A stretch of 64,000 nt of DNA. It comes from Terriglobia bacterium (GTDB lineage: Bacteria; Acidobacteriota; Terriglobia; JAIQFV01). The notes under the pieces were generated by a model. It saw nothing but the letters and a program-made list of their open reading frames with translations. It made no database searches and had not been told where the DNA came from. A program made the translations under genes and the position numbers. The stretch covers positions 186,001-250,000 of the forward strand of contig JAIQFV010000010.1 in the NCBI GenBank assembly GCA_020073085.1. Reading direction: 5' to 3'. This document shows, in pieces, positions 17,016-50,112 of the stretch. Position 1 is the stretch's first letter. Each line of letters begins with the position of its first letter.

Positions 17016-17324
17016 GATTTAAAGGATATTCCCGGTTCAAATTTCAAAACTCCAAATTCCAAACCCCAAAATCCAAATAAATTCCAAAGACCAAACTCCA
17101 AAATACCAAACCGCCTCGTGCCAGGTTCTCAGCATTCCTAGGACCCGCACAGATTCACACGCGGGGCGTTCGAGTGGGGTGATTGAATTGGATCCTTCAG
17201 CTGGTTTAGATTGCTGAAACTGATACTTGTGGGCAAATTGAATCTTCAAGCCAGGGTTATGTTTGAGAATTGGAATTTGGAATCTATTTGGACTTTGTCC
17301 GCCGCGGCGGATTGGAATTTGGGT
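17016..17324. repeat. Intergenic region with inverted heptamer-periodic tracts
   Basis: About 300 bp without a gene. The left block (17037-17110) is a run of variants of CAAATTC and CAAACTC; the right block (about 17262-17322) reads as TTGGAATTTGG variants, that is, the same motif in inverse orientation, so the two could pair over the 150 bp between them. The right block contains GTCCGCCGCGGCGGATTGG, which recurs with one small insertion at 31346-31366. The block touches the stop codon of the MEMO-family gene. Confidence 0.65.
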
Positions 17325-18128
17325 TCAAAAGACTATCATTCCCGCATACCCCACGACTTCTGCGCGGTCCCCGCTGATGTCTCCCGATGTCGCATACTTC
17401 ACCAGTTCTGCTTTGGAGGCGCCCAGGTGTATGGCCGCTGTCAGCATGGCAATAGTCGGGCCGTAACCGCACATGGTGACATGTTCTTTCTTGATGACGT
17501 CAAAAAGTCCTTTGGGGTCCAGGGCCAAGACCCGGTCGATGGCGCGCCGGTCCTTCTGGCGTGTTATCGAATCGCTTTCGTAATGATTCATGTCGCTGGA
17601 GGCAATGATTTGAACGGGCTCCGGCGATCCCTCGATGGATTGGGCGATGGCTTGTCCGAGCCGTTCCAGGGGAGCATAGCTGCCCGTACCGACCGCGATG
17701 GGGACGAAAGAGAATTCTCCCTTAAGCTGCTGAAGAAAAGGAAGCTGCACTTCCAGCGAATGTTCCGAGACGTGCGCCGTCTCGTCTTCGCTCACCAGCG
17801 GACAGGCGTGGGCGATCGCACGGGCCAGGGCGGACTCAATCTTCACATTCCCTAAAGGTGTTTGCCACTCCCCCTCGCTCATGATCGAAAGCGGGGTTCC
17901 CATCCCGGTGTGATTCGGACAAAGGATGATAAATCGCTCCGGAAGTTCAATCCGCGCATAGACCGCCCCCGCCACATGTCCCGAGTACATGTATCCCGCA
18001 TGCGGGACGACACACCCGATGGCCTTCCGCGGCTTGCCCTCGACAGCGAGATACCCGGCGAGATCGCTGACCAGTTTTTCTTTGTTCGAAGGATAAAAGC
18101 GGCCTGCTACTGCGGGACGGCGGATCAT
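17325..18128 (-). CDS. MEMO1-family protein (AmmeMemoRadiSam system protein B)
   Basis: A 267-residue protein of the MEMO family, structurally related to extradiol dioxygenases. Conserved landmarks are PAVAGRFYP at the N-terminus, VVPHAGYMYSGHVAG, LCPNHTGMG, SEHSLEVQLPFLQQL, SSDMNHYE and MCGYGP, which contain the His/Asp/Cys cluster of the presumed metal site. In many genomes this protein is encoded with an AMMECR1 protein and a radical SAM enzyme; neither is adjacent here. The true biochemical activity of the bacterial family is unsettled. The ATG at 18128 was chosen over an upstream in-frame start because GGAGGAGGG lies at the right distance before it. Confidence 0.88.
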   Translation of the reverse strand: MIRRPAVAGRFYPSNKEKLVSDLAGYLAVEGKPRKAIGCVVPHAGYMYSGHVAGAVYARIELPERFIILCPNHTGMGTPLSIMSEGEWQTPLGNVKIESALARAIAHACPLVSEDETAHVSEHSLEVQLPFLQQLKGEFSFVPIAVGTGSYAPLERLGQAIAQSIEGSPEPVQIIASSDMNHYESDSITRQKDRRAIDRVLALDPKGLFDVIKKEHVTMCGYGPTIAMLTAAIHLGASKAELVKYATSGDISGDRAEVVGYAGMIVF

Positions 18129-47774: not shown

Positions 47775-47824
47775 CAGTGCTCAAAAACCGAGGTAATCTT
47801 AAGATGTGATCAGGGGGGTGTCAA
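47775..47824 (-). promoter_or_regulatory. Promoter of the hrcA operon with a CIRCE half-site
   Basis: On the minus strand a perfect -35 TTGACA (47819-47824) and a -10 TAAGAT (47796-47801) are 17 bp apart; the start would be near 47789. The -35 overlaps the stop codon of the lipM gene. Just downstream, TGAGCACTG (47775-47783) matches 7 of 9 bases of the CIRCE left half (TTAGCACTC), but no inverse half follows at the 9-bp spacing. Confidence 0.65.
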
Positions 47825-48645
47825 GCGCTAACCCCATGAGAAATCTTATCCTTGTACTTGGACATCGCCCTCAGCTCTTCCGGGCCCAGGGGCCGTACCT
47901 CGAATTGGATCGAGAATTCCGCCTCCATCCCCTCCCGTAGCAGCTGTTCCACCTCCATTCGATCTACCTGACGACCCAGCAATGATCGAAGGGTCGTGAT
48001 GCTTTGAGCCAGCGCCCGTGGATCGGCCCGGGTGGCATGCGCCAGCTTCGGGATATCACAGTCCAGAAGCAGGGACCCGTGCTGAAGAAAACTCCGCTGC
48101 AGACGTTTCTGAGCGCTGCCCACGAGCTTGCGCTGGCCGACCATCAATTCATACCGGGAGGGGCTGTTGAAACAGGGATGTTTAATCGTCACCGGGTTTT
48201 GAGGGGCCTCCAAGGCGTGCGTCGGGGCATCCGCAAGAAGTGCATCGACACCCAGTCGCTTTAACCCGCGACAAAGCCCCTGCGCGATCTGCTTGTAGGT
48301 CCCGAGAACCGACGTCGAGGGGAAGATCTCCTGGTCGTTGGAGATGACCGCATACGTCAGTTCCTGATCATGCAGCACAGCCCGACCACCCGTGGGGCGG
48401 TGGACAATGTCGATGTGGTTGGCCTGGCAAAAATCGGTGTCTGCGGCCAATTCGATCTTCTGATGCTGCCCCAAAGAGAGGGTTGGCTGCTCCCACTCGT
48501 AAAATCGAACCACGGTGGCAATCCGGTCGCTCTCCTCGAGATGGTGCAGGAGCGCATCATCAATCTCCATATTGAGGGCACCCTGACGCGGCGGGTCGCT
48601 GATCAAACGCCACACTTTCTTTTCGGCATCCTTCATGTCGCTCAT
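47821..48645 (-). CDS. lipM: Octanoyltransferase LipM (lipoate-protein ligase A family)
   Basis: Transfers octanoyl from acyl carrier protein to a lipoyl-domain lysine or to GcvH. The 274-residue protein belongs to the BPL/LplA fold: RPTGGRAVLHDQELTYAV (about 83-100) and the lysine segment RKLVGSAQKR (about 172-181). The cysteine in HPCFNSPSRYELMV (Cys158) matches the acyl-carrying Cys of LipM (context C-F-x-x-P-S-x-Y-E), which true lipoate ligases lack at this place. So I favour LipM over LplA. It precedes hrcA; its stop overlaps the hrcA -35. Confidence 0.82.
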   Translation of the reverse strand: MSDMKDAEKKVWRLISDPPRQGALNMEIDDALLHHLEESDRIATVVRFYEWEQPTLSLGQHQKIELAADTDFCQANHIDIVHRPTGGRAVLHDQELTYAVISNDQEIFPSTSVLGTYKQIAQGLCRGLKRLGVDALLADAPTHALEAPQNPVTIKHPCFNSPSRYELMVGQRKLVGSAQKRLQRSFLQHGSLLLDCDIPKLAHATRADPRALAQSITTLRSLLGRQVDRMEVEQLLREGMEAEFSIQFEVRPLGPEELRAMSKYKDKISHGVSA

Positions 48646-48959
48646 TAAGGAAACATTGTAATCTTCTTGGGGGAAAATCAGAAGTCGGAAGAGCAGGTGT
48701 TAGGTGTCGGGTGCCAGAGGGCAGAAGCGGAAGCCAGAAGCCGGGGGCCAGAAAAGTAGTTCTCAGTTGTCAGTTCTCAGTTGTCAGTTGCCAGAGGAAC
48801 GAACCAGCAGCCAGAGGCGGGAAGCCAGAAGCCGGAAGTCAGAGGTCGGAAGCCGGAAGTCAGAAGATGCAGTAGGGGTTTTAACTTTGAACTTTGAACC
48901 TTGAACCTGGAACTGGGTTTCAAGACTTTGGACTTTGAACATGGAACTTTGAACTCTTA
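48646..48959 (+). repeat. Heptamer-periodic intergenic tract
   Basis: A gene-free stretch of 310 bp made largely of three kinds of 7-bp units: CAGTTGT/CAGTTCT (48761-48792), GGAAGCC/AGAAGCC/GGAAGTC (about 48820-48865) and AACTTTG/AACCTTG/GACTTTG (about 48882-48955). Units vary by one or two bases. It separates the DedA-rhodanese gene from lipM and abuts the rhodanese TAA at 48960-48962. Confidence 0.7.
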
Positions 48960-49934
48960 TTACGAAAACCGGGGGAGCACGAGGATATCCTCAGCAGGGA
49001 CCGCTTCGACATCGCCTTTCATTTCCGTCCAGGCTTTGAAGCCACCGCGGATCACGAAGGCATTAAAACCCTTTTCTCGAAGGAGGTGCACCAGCCTGGT
49101 GCTTGTCGCATCGTTCCTTCAAGTGCAATACAAATATATCTCCTTGTCGCGAGGCAGTTTCTCAAGTTGCTCGTTGATGGACGCCGGCTCGATGCGAATG
49201 GAGCCTTTGATGCGCTGGGCGCCATCCTCGTAATAGCCATGGCTGCGCGAGTCGGCAATCAAGATCGCCTTTGACCATTTCGGATCGGATAGCTTCTCGG
49301 CCAACTCCTGAGCGCTCACCCGAGGCACTTCCCGGTAAAGTTGGTTCTTGGAGTAAATCCGGAACCGGTGAATGGCGTACCCTAAGAGGGCGAGAATAAA
49401 GAGCCAGAGGAAAATCTGACCCAGAGAATGAATGCGGTTCACAATGCGCTCGATCCCCCGGCTGAAGAAGAATCCGAGCGCCAGGAAGGGGACGATGTAA
49501 AGCAGGCTTCCCAGCAGATCGAGCGCGAGGAACTGGCGGAGCTTCATTCTCAGGCTCCCTGCCAGAGGAGGGGCCATGGTGTTGATGCCGGGAATGTACT
49601 TCGCAAAAACGAGGGTGATCCGTCCCCGCCTGTAAAACGATTCGGCGGACCGAAGGATGCAAGTCTCGGGGCTGGCGGAGACTTTGCAGAGAAATCCGAG
49701 AATCCACCAGCCTGACTTTCTGCCAAGAAAATAGAGGACCGTATCTCCCAACAACATCCCGAAGACCGCCGTCAACAGGACGATTGTGAGGCTCAGGGAA
49801 CCGAGCATCGACGCCGCGCCCGCCGCCAGAAGAAACGGGAACGCCGGGATCGGCAACCCCAGGGCCTCAAGAAAAACACTGGCGAATAGGATCGCATACC
49901 CGTAGCGATCAAGAAGATGCAAGATGTGGTCCAT
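48960..49934 (-). CDS. DedA-family membrane protein fused to rhodanese domain; in-frame TGA at the catalytic position (predicted selenoprotein)
   Basis: From the ATG at 49934 (GAGGAC upstream) the frame gives a DedA membrane domain (residues 1-200: EALGLPIPAFPFLLAAGAAS, LLGDTVLYFLGRKSG, RITLVFAKYIPGINTMAPPL) and a rhodanese domain (about 215-310: LIADSRSHGYYEDGAQRIKG, EIYLYCT, LLREKGFNAFVIRGGFKAW). Residue 272 is encoded by TGA (49119-49121) exactly where this rhodanese class has its active-site cysteine (Y-C-T-C-x-N-E/D-A-T-S; here Y-C-T-TGA-R-N-D-A-T-S). After the TGA the frame stays open for 52 more codons of normal rhodanese sequence to TAA at 48960-48962. A SECIS-like hairpin follows the TGA. 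Predicted length is 324 residues with selenocysteine. A recent nonsense mutation or an assembly error is the alternative. Confidence 0.72.
49079..49120 (-). promoter_or_regulatory. Candidate bacterial SECIS element
   Basis: Downstream of the TGA (49121-49119) the minus strand forms an upper stem GCACCA (49102-49097) / TGGTGC (49093-49088) with the loop GGC, starting 22 nt after the TGA. An outer stem GAAGGA (49120-49115) / TCCTTC (49084-49079) encloses it. A stem at 16-37 nt from the UGA and a G among the first loop bases is the established description of bacterial SECIS elements; the outer helix includes the UGA itself, which is also usual. Fold and function are inferred by eye. Confidence 0.6.
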
Positions 49935-50112
49935 GGATCTGTCCTCATCGGGCACAGATGAATGCAGACTACGCGGAGAGGCCAGAGGGGATTGGAAATT
50001 GCGGTCTTGGCAATCTATGCGATGGCCGGACCTGCCGAGACAGACCAACCACTCATTTGCGTGTCCGCCTGGCCGCGAAACCAGTATTCACGGCTTCCAT
50101 CACCACCCCCAA

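Follow-up and report, generated by a model that had tools for sequence, protein, structure and literature searches.

Tandem repeats of seven-nucleotide units have so far been described singly, and left unexplained, in cyanobacteria, Xanthomonas and giant sulfur bacteria. The present analysis concerns such heptad repeats in a 64,000-nucleotide stretch of Terriglobia bacterium (Acidobacteriota; GenBank assembly GCA_020073085.1, contig JAIQFV010000010.1, positions 186,001 to 250,000), referred to below as the window, where several unlike units are arrayed in a single intergenic gap near 48.7 kb, between a lipoyl protein ligase gene and a VTT/DedA-rhodanese gene. In our designations the window is C10:186001-250000 of genome G000 (5.79 Mb, 98.7% complete), and G001 is the genome of a sister species in the same genus.

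The GGGAATC repeats of Xanthomonas and the GGGGA(C/T)T repeats of Nostoc are mostly intergenic and have no known function (Rehm et al. 2015, PMC4692102). According to that study, they lie mostly 0-50 bp from the edges of open reading frames (ORFs) and are oriented so that the unit strand points outward from the ORF; they form convergent inverted pairs (70 and 75 in two Xanthomonas), are few between divergent ORFs (8% and 7%), vary between related species and consist of a G-rich, quadruplex-forming unit; tandem heptanucleotide repeats in the cyanobacterial genome of Calothrix are also mentioned there (PMC4692102). The tracts analysed here resemble these repeats, so far as they are described, in being built of a tandem intergenic 7-nt unit placed near an ORF edge and reading away from it, in forming inverted pairs and in being scarce between divergent genes. 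Unlike that one G-rich quadruplex unit, however, they comprise seven unlike families under one polarity rule in one genome; families replace one another at some sites, units are found inverted in place, and one family is dispersed. The Calothrix repeats are said to carry the name STRR, attributed to Mazel et al. 1990.

TAACTGA direct repeats are known from Beggiatoaceae, Cyanobacteria and Bacteroidetes, and 147 of 170 sets point toward start codons (MacGregor 2015, PMC4679880). A TAACTGA unit pointing toward a start codon is a CAGTTAT unit reading away from it, that is, the family and the polarity of CAGTTNT here; in that study, however, the TAACTGA repeats lie mostly upstream of starts, include a single inverted repeat, and related heptamers seldom occur as repeats (PMC4679880), whereas the present arrays stand at both gene edges, form paired arms and belong to many families, the window units being CAGTTGT and CAGTTCT. 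The P6b stem of the Nostoc trnL intron likewise has heptad-built arms with fixed and free positions, and one motif class replacing another, although as described it involves a single intron, two classes and an RNA structure rather than many intergenic sites (PMC4476775). A similar geometry of single heptamer units is already known from Xanthomonas and TAACTGA repeats; no report of several families under one polarity rule in one genome, of unit exchange or of inversion was found in the open-licence PubMed Central literature. Miniature inverted-repeat transposable elements (MITEs) and their kin are short, non-coding, dispersed intergenic elements, often with inverted arms. The present units are MITE-like in being short and non-coding, often with inverted arms, in the dispersal of one family and in their absence from some orthologous sites, but in place of the fixed termini of MITEs their arms are variable heptad arrays, and few cores are shared.

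The reading to which we give about an even chance is that the tracts are parts of DNA-level intergenic elements built from oriented heptad arrays, and that the window site is a composite of this kind. Such elements would fill gaps from gene to gene, often starting a few bases past a stop codon, with arrays running inward from the gene edges; because they would do so from both edges, many elements would be quasi-palindromes. They would behave as DNA units that, from one sister species to the other, can be lost, turned around in place or replaced by a different heptad family, and their unit number would change through gain or loss of heptads, probably by slippage. Spread may occur by insertion, and an enzyme may be responsible. 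At the window site, the left arms would be the CAGAAGT, YAGGTGT, CAGARGY and CAGTTNT tracts and the right arm the AACTTTG tract.

Period seven at the 48.7 kb gap

The preliminary description reported CAGTTGT-, GGAAGCC- and AACTTTG-type units in this gap and expected their lag-7 identity to exceed that of shuffled sequence. Lag identities, a shuffle test, Tandem Repeats Finder and the raw sequence were used at the site. All three types are present in 48661-48959, where lag-7 identity is 0.565, a value reached by none of 2000 dinucleotide shuffles (mean 0.258, standard deviation 0.026, maximum 0.346); at lags from 1 to 20 other than 7 and 14, identity is 0.17-0.36. A fourth type, YAGGTGN at 48694-48714, had gone unnamed. 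Over the whole window at lags 2-20, 60-bp segments with identity of at least 0.6 lie only at 17027-17115 and 48724-48963 for lag 7 and at 48756-48954 for lag 14, and among the 32 gaps between called genes that measure 100 bp or more the largest lag-7 excess belongs to the 48.7 kb gap and the second largest to a gap near 17 kb.

Some details of the earlier account required amendment. The period is indeed seven, but it is not strict, with breaks near 48715-48757, 48867-48882 and 48914-48923. It does recur at 17 kb, where the left tract reaches 0.608 (0 of 2000 shuffles) but the right tract, at 17264-17326, is weak (0.411; 39 of 2000). One tract had been said to end exactly at the stop codon of the selenoprotein candidate, here the VTT/DedA-rhodanese gene; its last unit occupies 48951-48957, so that it ends 2 bp from the first read-through TAA (48960-48962) and overlaps the second (48957-48959). 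The view that period 7 is special, and common to unrelated units, was borne out in three contiguous blocks (250 kb of contig C10 and 200 kb of C2, C2:250-450k, in G000; 225 kb of C68 in G001). The numbers of lag-7 arrays there are 15, 24 and 32, whereas lags 5, 6, 8, 9, 10 and 11 give 0-2 each, and the 48.7 kb gap is one instance of a genome-wide pattern. Comparison of the two congeners, in line with the earlier proposal to compare strains, showed a difference in unit number: the lipoyl-ligase/DedA-rhodanese gap of G001 (L180) has one to two AACTTTG units versus about 11 in the window, and the ends of the locus are conserved with the middle remodelled. A palindromic sequence, TAGGGGCGCACAGATGTGCGCCC, was also seen inside the L180 gap.

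Two points in that account need correction. Since every family keeps some positions fixed and leaves others free, the units do not degenerate by random substitution; nor are the tracts unrelated curiosities, because they share one polarity rule relative to gene edges and the order CAGARGY then AACTTTG is seen in other gaps. The suggested copying process that conserves length is possible, with partial support only.

Unit families and their orientation at gene edges

Seven unit families occur in the two sister genomes, written here in their inward form: CAGTTNT, CAGARGY, YAGGTRN, CAGCNAT, CAGTGGT, CAAAGTT (AACTTTG reversed) and CCAAATT. Five of them are present in the window. The pattern AACTTTGAACYTTGAAC, with up to two mismatches, has 342 matches in G000 versus 31 for its reversed control. 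In 749 kb sampled from both genomes, partly by selection for hits, where the stretches beyond C10, C2:250-450k and C68 were mostly picked for holding matches and C68 and C19 themselves came from match lists, 151 of 152 lag-7 arrays are intergenic, with 77% of the sequence called coding, and the six other lags yield 0-3 arrays; the 133 arrays with a called gene on both sides entered the array-gene analysis. Within CAGTTNT units, positions 1-3 are conserved at 96-99% and position 6 is free (58% G, 31% C, 8% A, 3% T), while CAGCNAT units are conserved at 96-100% at positions 1-4 and 7 and free at 5-6. CAGTTNT, AACTTTG and CCAAATT units lack a G-run. Among 18 gaps inspected by eye, several others show CAGARGY followed by AACTTTG, with a short G-rich linker before the latter. 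The longest CAGARGY array among those listed measures 753 bp (L048 9613-10365, contig C24 of G000), and at L031 11521-13988 (C10 of G000) inward CCAAATT arms are separated by about 2.4 kb, within 2974 bp that hold no called gene.

Each array was scored by the version of the unit seen when moving from the closer gene edge into the gap; genes were called by our own dicodon model, which makes start codons uncertain. Across 664 gaps of 60-1500 bp in both genomes, 181 arrays could be classified, 165 inward and 16 opposite. With only the outermost array of each gap counted, the ratio is 52:5 in G000 and 48:2 in G001 (six arrays, 1 and 5, being without family), and 31:2 in the three contiguous blocks; the two genomes are counted apart because orthologous sites of sister species are not independent. 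By family, the ratios are 56:7 for CAGTTNT, 38:2 for YAGGTRN, 25:4 for CAAAGTT, 19:2 for CAGARGY, 12:1 for CAGCNAT, 11:0 for CCAAATT and 4:0 for CAGTGGT. The rule is valid at stop edges (91:10) as well as at start edges (74:6), and hence independent of gene direction. For the 101 stop-edge arrays, the commonest distance is 4 bp after the stop codon (20 arrays) and the median 7 bp; arrays at start edges have a median distance of 42 bp. Arrays are found in 92 of 461 co-directional, 17 of 95 convergent and 3 of 108 divergent gaps. The window tracts obey the same polarity, with CAGAAGY, YAGGTGN and CAGTTNT running inward from the left gene and AACTTTG being the inward CAAAGTT of the right gene.

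Because CAGTTNT contains no stop in its inward reading and its complement contains TGA, start and stop calling could bias polarity. A gene-calling artefact was nevertheless rejected as the source of the rule, as the rule is obeyed both by YAGGTRN, whose inward reading contains stops, and by CCAAATT, which lacks them in either reading.

These results bear on one alternative, ordinary long simple repeats, in which slippage favouring 7-nt units would expand chance heptads without any element or polarity-setting process. The difference in unit number between the congeners at the window locus and the cores, mostly not visibly shared, are consistent with it, but slippage predicts neither a single gene-edge polarity nor the same polarity in other lineages (described below), and it leaves fixed and free positions, matching arms and the joint exchange of both arms unexplained. 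The polarity result already speaks against slippage as the sole cause, and this alternative is considered unlikely.

Paired arms, sister species and dispersal

Inward arrays stand at both ends of 43 gaps, and in 28 of these the two arms belong to the same family, with 9.4 expected by random pairing; CAGARGY is combined with CAAAGTT in 7 of the 15 mixed-family gaps. The inverted-repeat score exceeds 20 in 0.59 of 51 array gaps in G000 and 0.76 of 49 in G001, compared with 0 and 0.02 in shuffled gaps. An inverted pair, with a weak right tract, is also present at 17 kb, and the DNA of 17020-17335 folds with a z score of -3.34.

Inverted pairs of this strength in mostly transcribed gaps, the rarity of arrays in divergent gaps and the folding of the 17 kb site are what would be seen if the arms were kept by selection because a hairpin in the mRNA or in extruded DNA controls stability, termination or translational coupling. 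Selected mRNA pairing, however, should make G-T (G-U) mismatches exceed A-C mismatches on the transcribed strand, and no clear wobble excess is present there: the counts are 269 versus 245 in 56 co-directional array stems and 29 versus 27 in 10 convergent stems, with 129 versus 101 in weakly paired control gaps. In addition, the window site does not fold, polarity is identical at start and stop edges, and no known RNA family in Rfam was matched at the gathering threshold (five sources, 138 kb). Selected intercistronic hairpins are regarded as rather unlikely.

Three aligned regions contain 161 orthologous gaps of G000 and G001, 128 of which were compared, the other 33 being no longer than 30 bp in one species. 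Arrays are found in both species in 20 gaps, in G001 only in 8, in G000 only in 0 and in neither in 100. At three sites (C19-28, C19-29 and C68-119; by eye) the two species carry different families in both arms, between conserved flanking genes, and C19-30 shows a change of sub-type inside YAGGTRN (by eye); the C19 sites lie among tandem ADOP genes. The whole unit is inverted in place at two sites, C19-34 (142 inverted versus 83.5 direct) and C68-80 (98 versus 52); C68-47, with about equal scores (95 direct, 96.5 inverted), was excluded. Units are missing in G000 at C68-96, at the L360 site and probably at C19-38.

Exchange of both arms together, the presence of one family in both arms, placement at gene edges and the small number of shared cores would also follow from end-filling, in which resection of a break in the gap proceeds as far as the gene edges, a single template directs the addition of heptads to both 3' ends, and joining follows; inward polarity, which is the direction of the 3' ends facing the gap, equal families in both arms and unique cores would all result from one event. 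The gene-end erosion that end-filling predicts was not seen, however, with the stop codon the same at 22 of 31 array edges versus 100 of 128 others, and the last 30 coding nucleotides 87% identical (median) at array edges and other edges alike. The dispersed CAGARGY element with its shared leader points instead to copying of a unit, and end-filling appears quite improbable.

This dispersal was traced with a 105-bp query consisting of the leader plus CAGARGY heptads, a match being called leader-reaching if it starts at or before query position 32. There were 24 matches in G001, 13 of them leader-reaching (the query included), and 7 in G000, 5 of them leader-reaching, the rest being confined to the heptads or their edge; none of five other genomes had a match, which makes the CAGARGY unit a dispersed repeat of the genus. 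In terms of DNA-level elements, the CAGARGY-armed unit with its conserved leader is a dispersed family. It is the only one with dispersed copies of conserved sequence, a MITE trait, and its arms are non-terminal.

A number of observations weigh against the reading as DNA-level elements. The 48.7 kb site itself is no inverted repeat (score 13 in G000 and 16 in G001, shuffled gaps about 13), its arms differ in sequence and are non-complementary, and as an RNA hairpin it has no advantage over shuffled sequence (z +1.22 and +2.58). Arm lengths are uncorrelated (-0.11), and arms within a locus are only slightly more alike than arms of different loci (29.5 versus 26.2 in 23 brackets, a difference reached in 21 of 5000 permutations). 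Of the three family exchanges, two (C19-28 and C19-29) sit in a tandem ADOP cluster; at L360, where G000 lacks the unit, it has about 18 bp of dissimilar sequence instead; and the L356 leader site aligns poorly between the species. No clear target-site duplication was found at the absent sites C68-96 and L360, and no transposase search was made. When only the cores of the 205 inverted-repeat gaps were compared by BLAST, 5 gaps were linked, though this test was weak, orthologous cores having escaped it as well; heptad-masked BLAST of the 664 whole gaps, which also detects other kinds of repeat, linked more, including 6 in C9/C19 between tandem ADOP permeases, and placed 75 gaps in one similarity component. 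Shared cores, looked for as a sign of recent transposition, were few. Outside the genus, divergent gaps are not avoided in genome G045, where 3 of 12 hold arrays (co-directional gaps, 15 of 39), and CAGARGY polarity is 2:3 in G148, whose five arrays are too few to judge.

The 75-gap component that persists after masking suggests that other dispersed intergenic repeats are abundant in the genus. At L159 (C19 of G001, C9 of G000), heptad-armed gaps lie between tandem ADOP genes and some neighbouring gaps share cores; all four proteins tested from L159 in G001 are ADOP permeases (TIGR03434, 'ADOP family duplicated permease'), a family suggestive of Acidobacteriota.

Other lineages and the features of the window

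Three consecutive CAGTTNT units were matched in 8 of 41 genomes (its own and relatives down to the class), with the source genome included and two having a single match; one genus shows both extremes, with 20 matches in G022 and none in G007. Across 119 genomes of the phylum, including its own, the distribution is sporadic, with AACTTTG in 6 and CAGARGY in 12. G045, from another family, has 214 AACTTTG matches versus 11 for the reversed control, and its polarity is the same (22:5, p 0.0015). G063 gave 34 matches of the reversed AACTTTG control and 0 of the pattern itself, perhaps reflecting another heptad family.

Four consecutive CAGTTNT units were found in at least 115 stretches of named species, 80 of which were analysed, with phyla assigned by the author from record titles and genes taken as greedy ORFs. 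Among the matches listed are Cyanobacteria, Acidobacteria, Planctomycetes, Bacteroidetes, Verrucomicrobia, Proteobacteria and Chloroflexi, and also Bipolaricaulota, Riflebacteria, Omnitrophica, Victivallaceae and Ruminococcus. These matches hold 94 arrays, 72 of them usable for distance (9 lie inside an ORF and 13 have no gene on one side), and in 56 of the 72 the outer edge is the one nearer a gene (median 13 versus 106.5 bp). An inward partner within 500 bp accompanies 14 of the 94 arrays and an outward partner 0. One linker motif of CAGTTNT-CAGCNAT units had no match by pattern in the sampled viral-contig and named-genome loci.

The fixed and free positions within units could also mark arrays of binding sites for a heptad-reading nucleoid or RNA-binding protein, held at gene borders by selection, and for the TAACTGA repeats that lie immediately before start codons MacGregor proposed a regulator acting post-transcriptionally (PMC4679880). 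Such a protein would have to contend with seven unlike families under one rule in one genome, with the exchange of families at the same site and with the sporadic distribution across the phylum, and this explanation is judged very unlikely.

A broader conjecture, which we consider a long shot, is that a widespread bacterial DNA process adds heptads from a small repertoire (CAGTTNT, CAGARGY, YAGGTRN, CAAAGTT, CCAAATT and others) to both 3' ends of a broken gap before joining, in a manner resembling de novo telomere addition. If true, it would explain the period of seven shared by unlike units, inward polarity, matched arms and the limits set by gene edges, together with the same polarity in distant phyla and the few shared cores.

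The features of the window are collected in Table 1. In the VTT/DedA-rhodanese gene, on the minus strand, an in-frame TGA (49119-49121, TCA on the plus strand) comes shortly after the YCT of the rhodanese part, and 52 more sense codons lie past it before the TAA at 48960-48962; the TGA is apparently kept in the sister species (L180, by eye).

Table 1. Heptad tracts and adjoining genes at the two sites of the window
Feature	Position	Strand	Basis or remark
CAGAAGT unit, then CAGGTGT-TAGGTGT-CGGGTGC (YAGGTRN family); left edge of the putative composite	48679..48714	+	Unit coordinates; left edge 48679 is 33 bp from the lipoyl-ligase start codon (48645)
First CAGARGY (GGAAGCC-type) tract, degenerate	48715..48757	+	Tandem Repeats Finder rows within 48713-48753
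CAGTTNT (CAGTTGT-type) tract, about 5 units, position 6 alternating C/G	48758..48794	+	Lag-7 identity 0.87
Second CAGARGY tract, 9 units	48804..48866	+	Tandem Repeats Finder
Non-repeat linker, CAGARGY to AACTTTG tract	48867..48882	+	Raw sequence
AACTTTG tract, about 11 units, one break at 48914-48923; reaches the stop codon of the downstream gene	48883..48957	+	Repeat and lag analyses
Lipoyl protein ligase (LplA/B catalytic domain); its start codon marks the left edge of the gap	47821..48645	-	Pfam PF21948, E 3.9e-35
VTT/DedA plus rhodanese gene	48960..50048 (read-through)	-	Pfam PF09335, PF00581
VTT/DedA-rhodanese, listed ORF	49119-50048	-	Ends in TGA; read-through frame stops at 48960-48962
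CCAAATT-type tract, left edge of the gap of the second site	17030..17115	+	Repeat, lag and shuffle analyses
Reverse-complement tract GGAATTTGG, right edge of the 17 kb gap; weak inverted pair	17264..17326	+	Lag and shuffle analyses

Seven unlike units thus follow one geometric rule in one genome, and two of them keep the rule in other lineages. This turns a set of odd repeats into one testable problem, namely what sets the period of seven and the polarity at gene edges, and the pair G000 and G001, whose units differ by exchange, inversion or absence, is well suited to its study. The arrays also matter to gene annotators, because several of them read as open frames.
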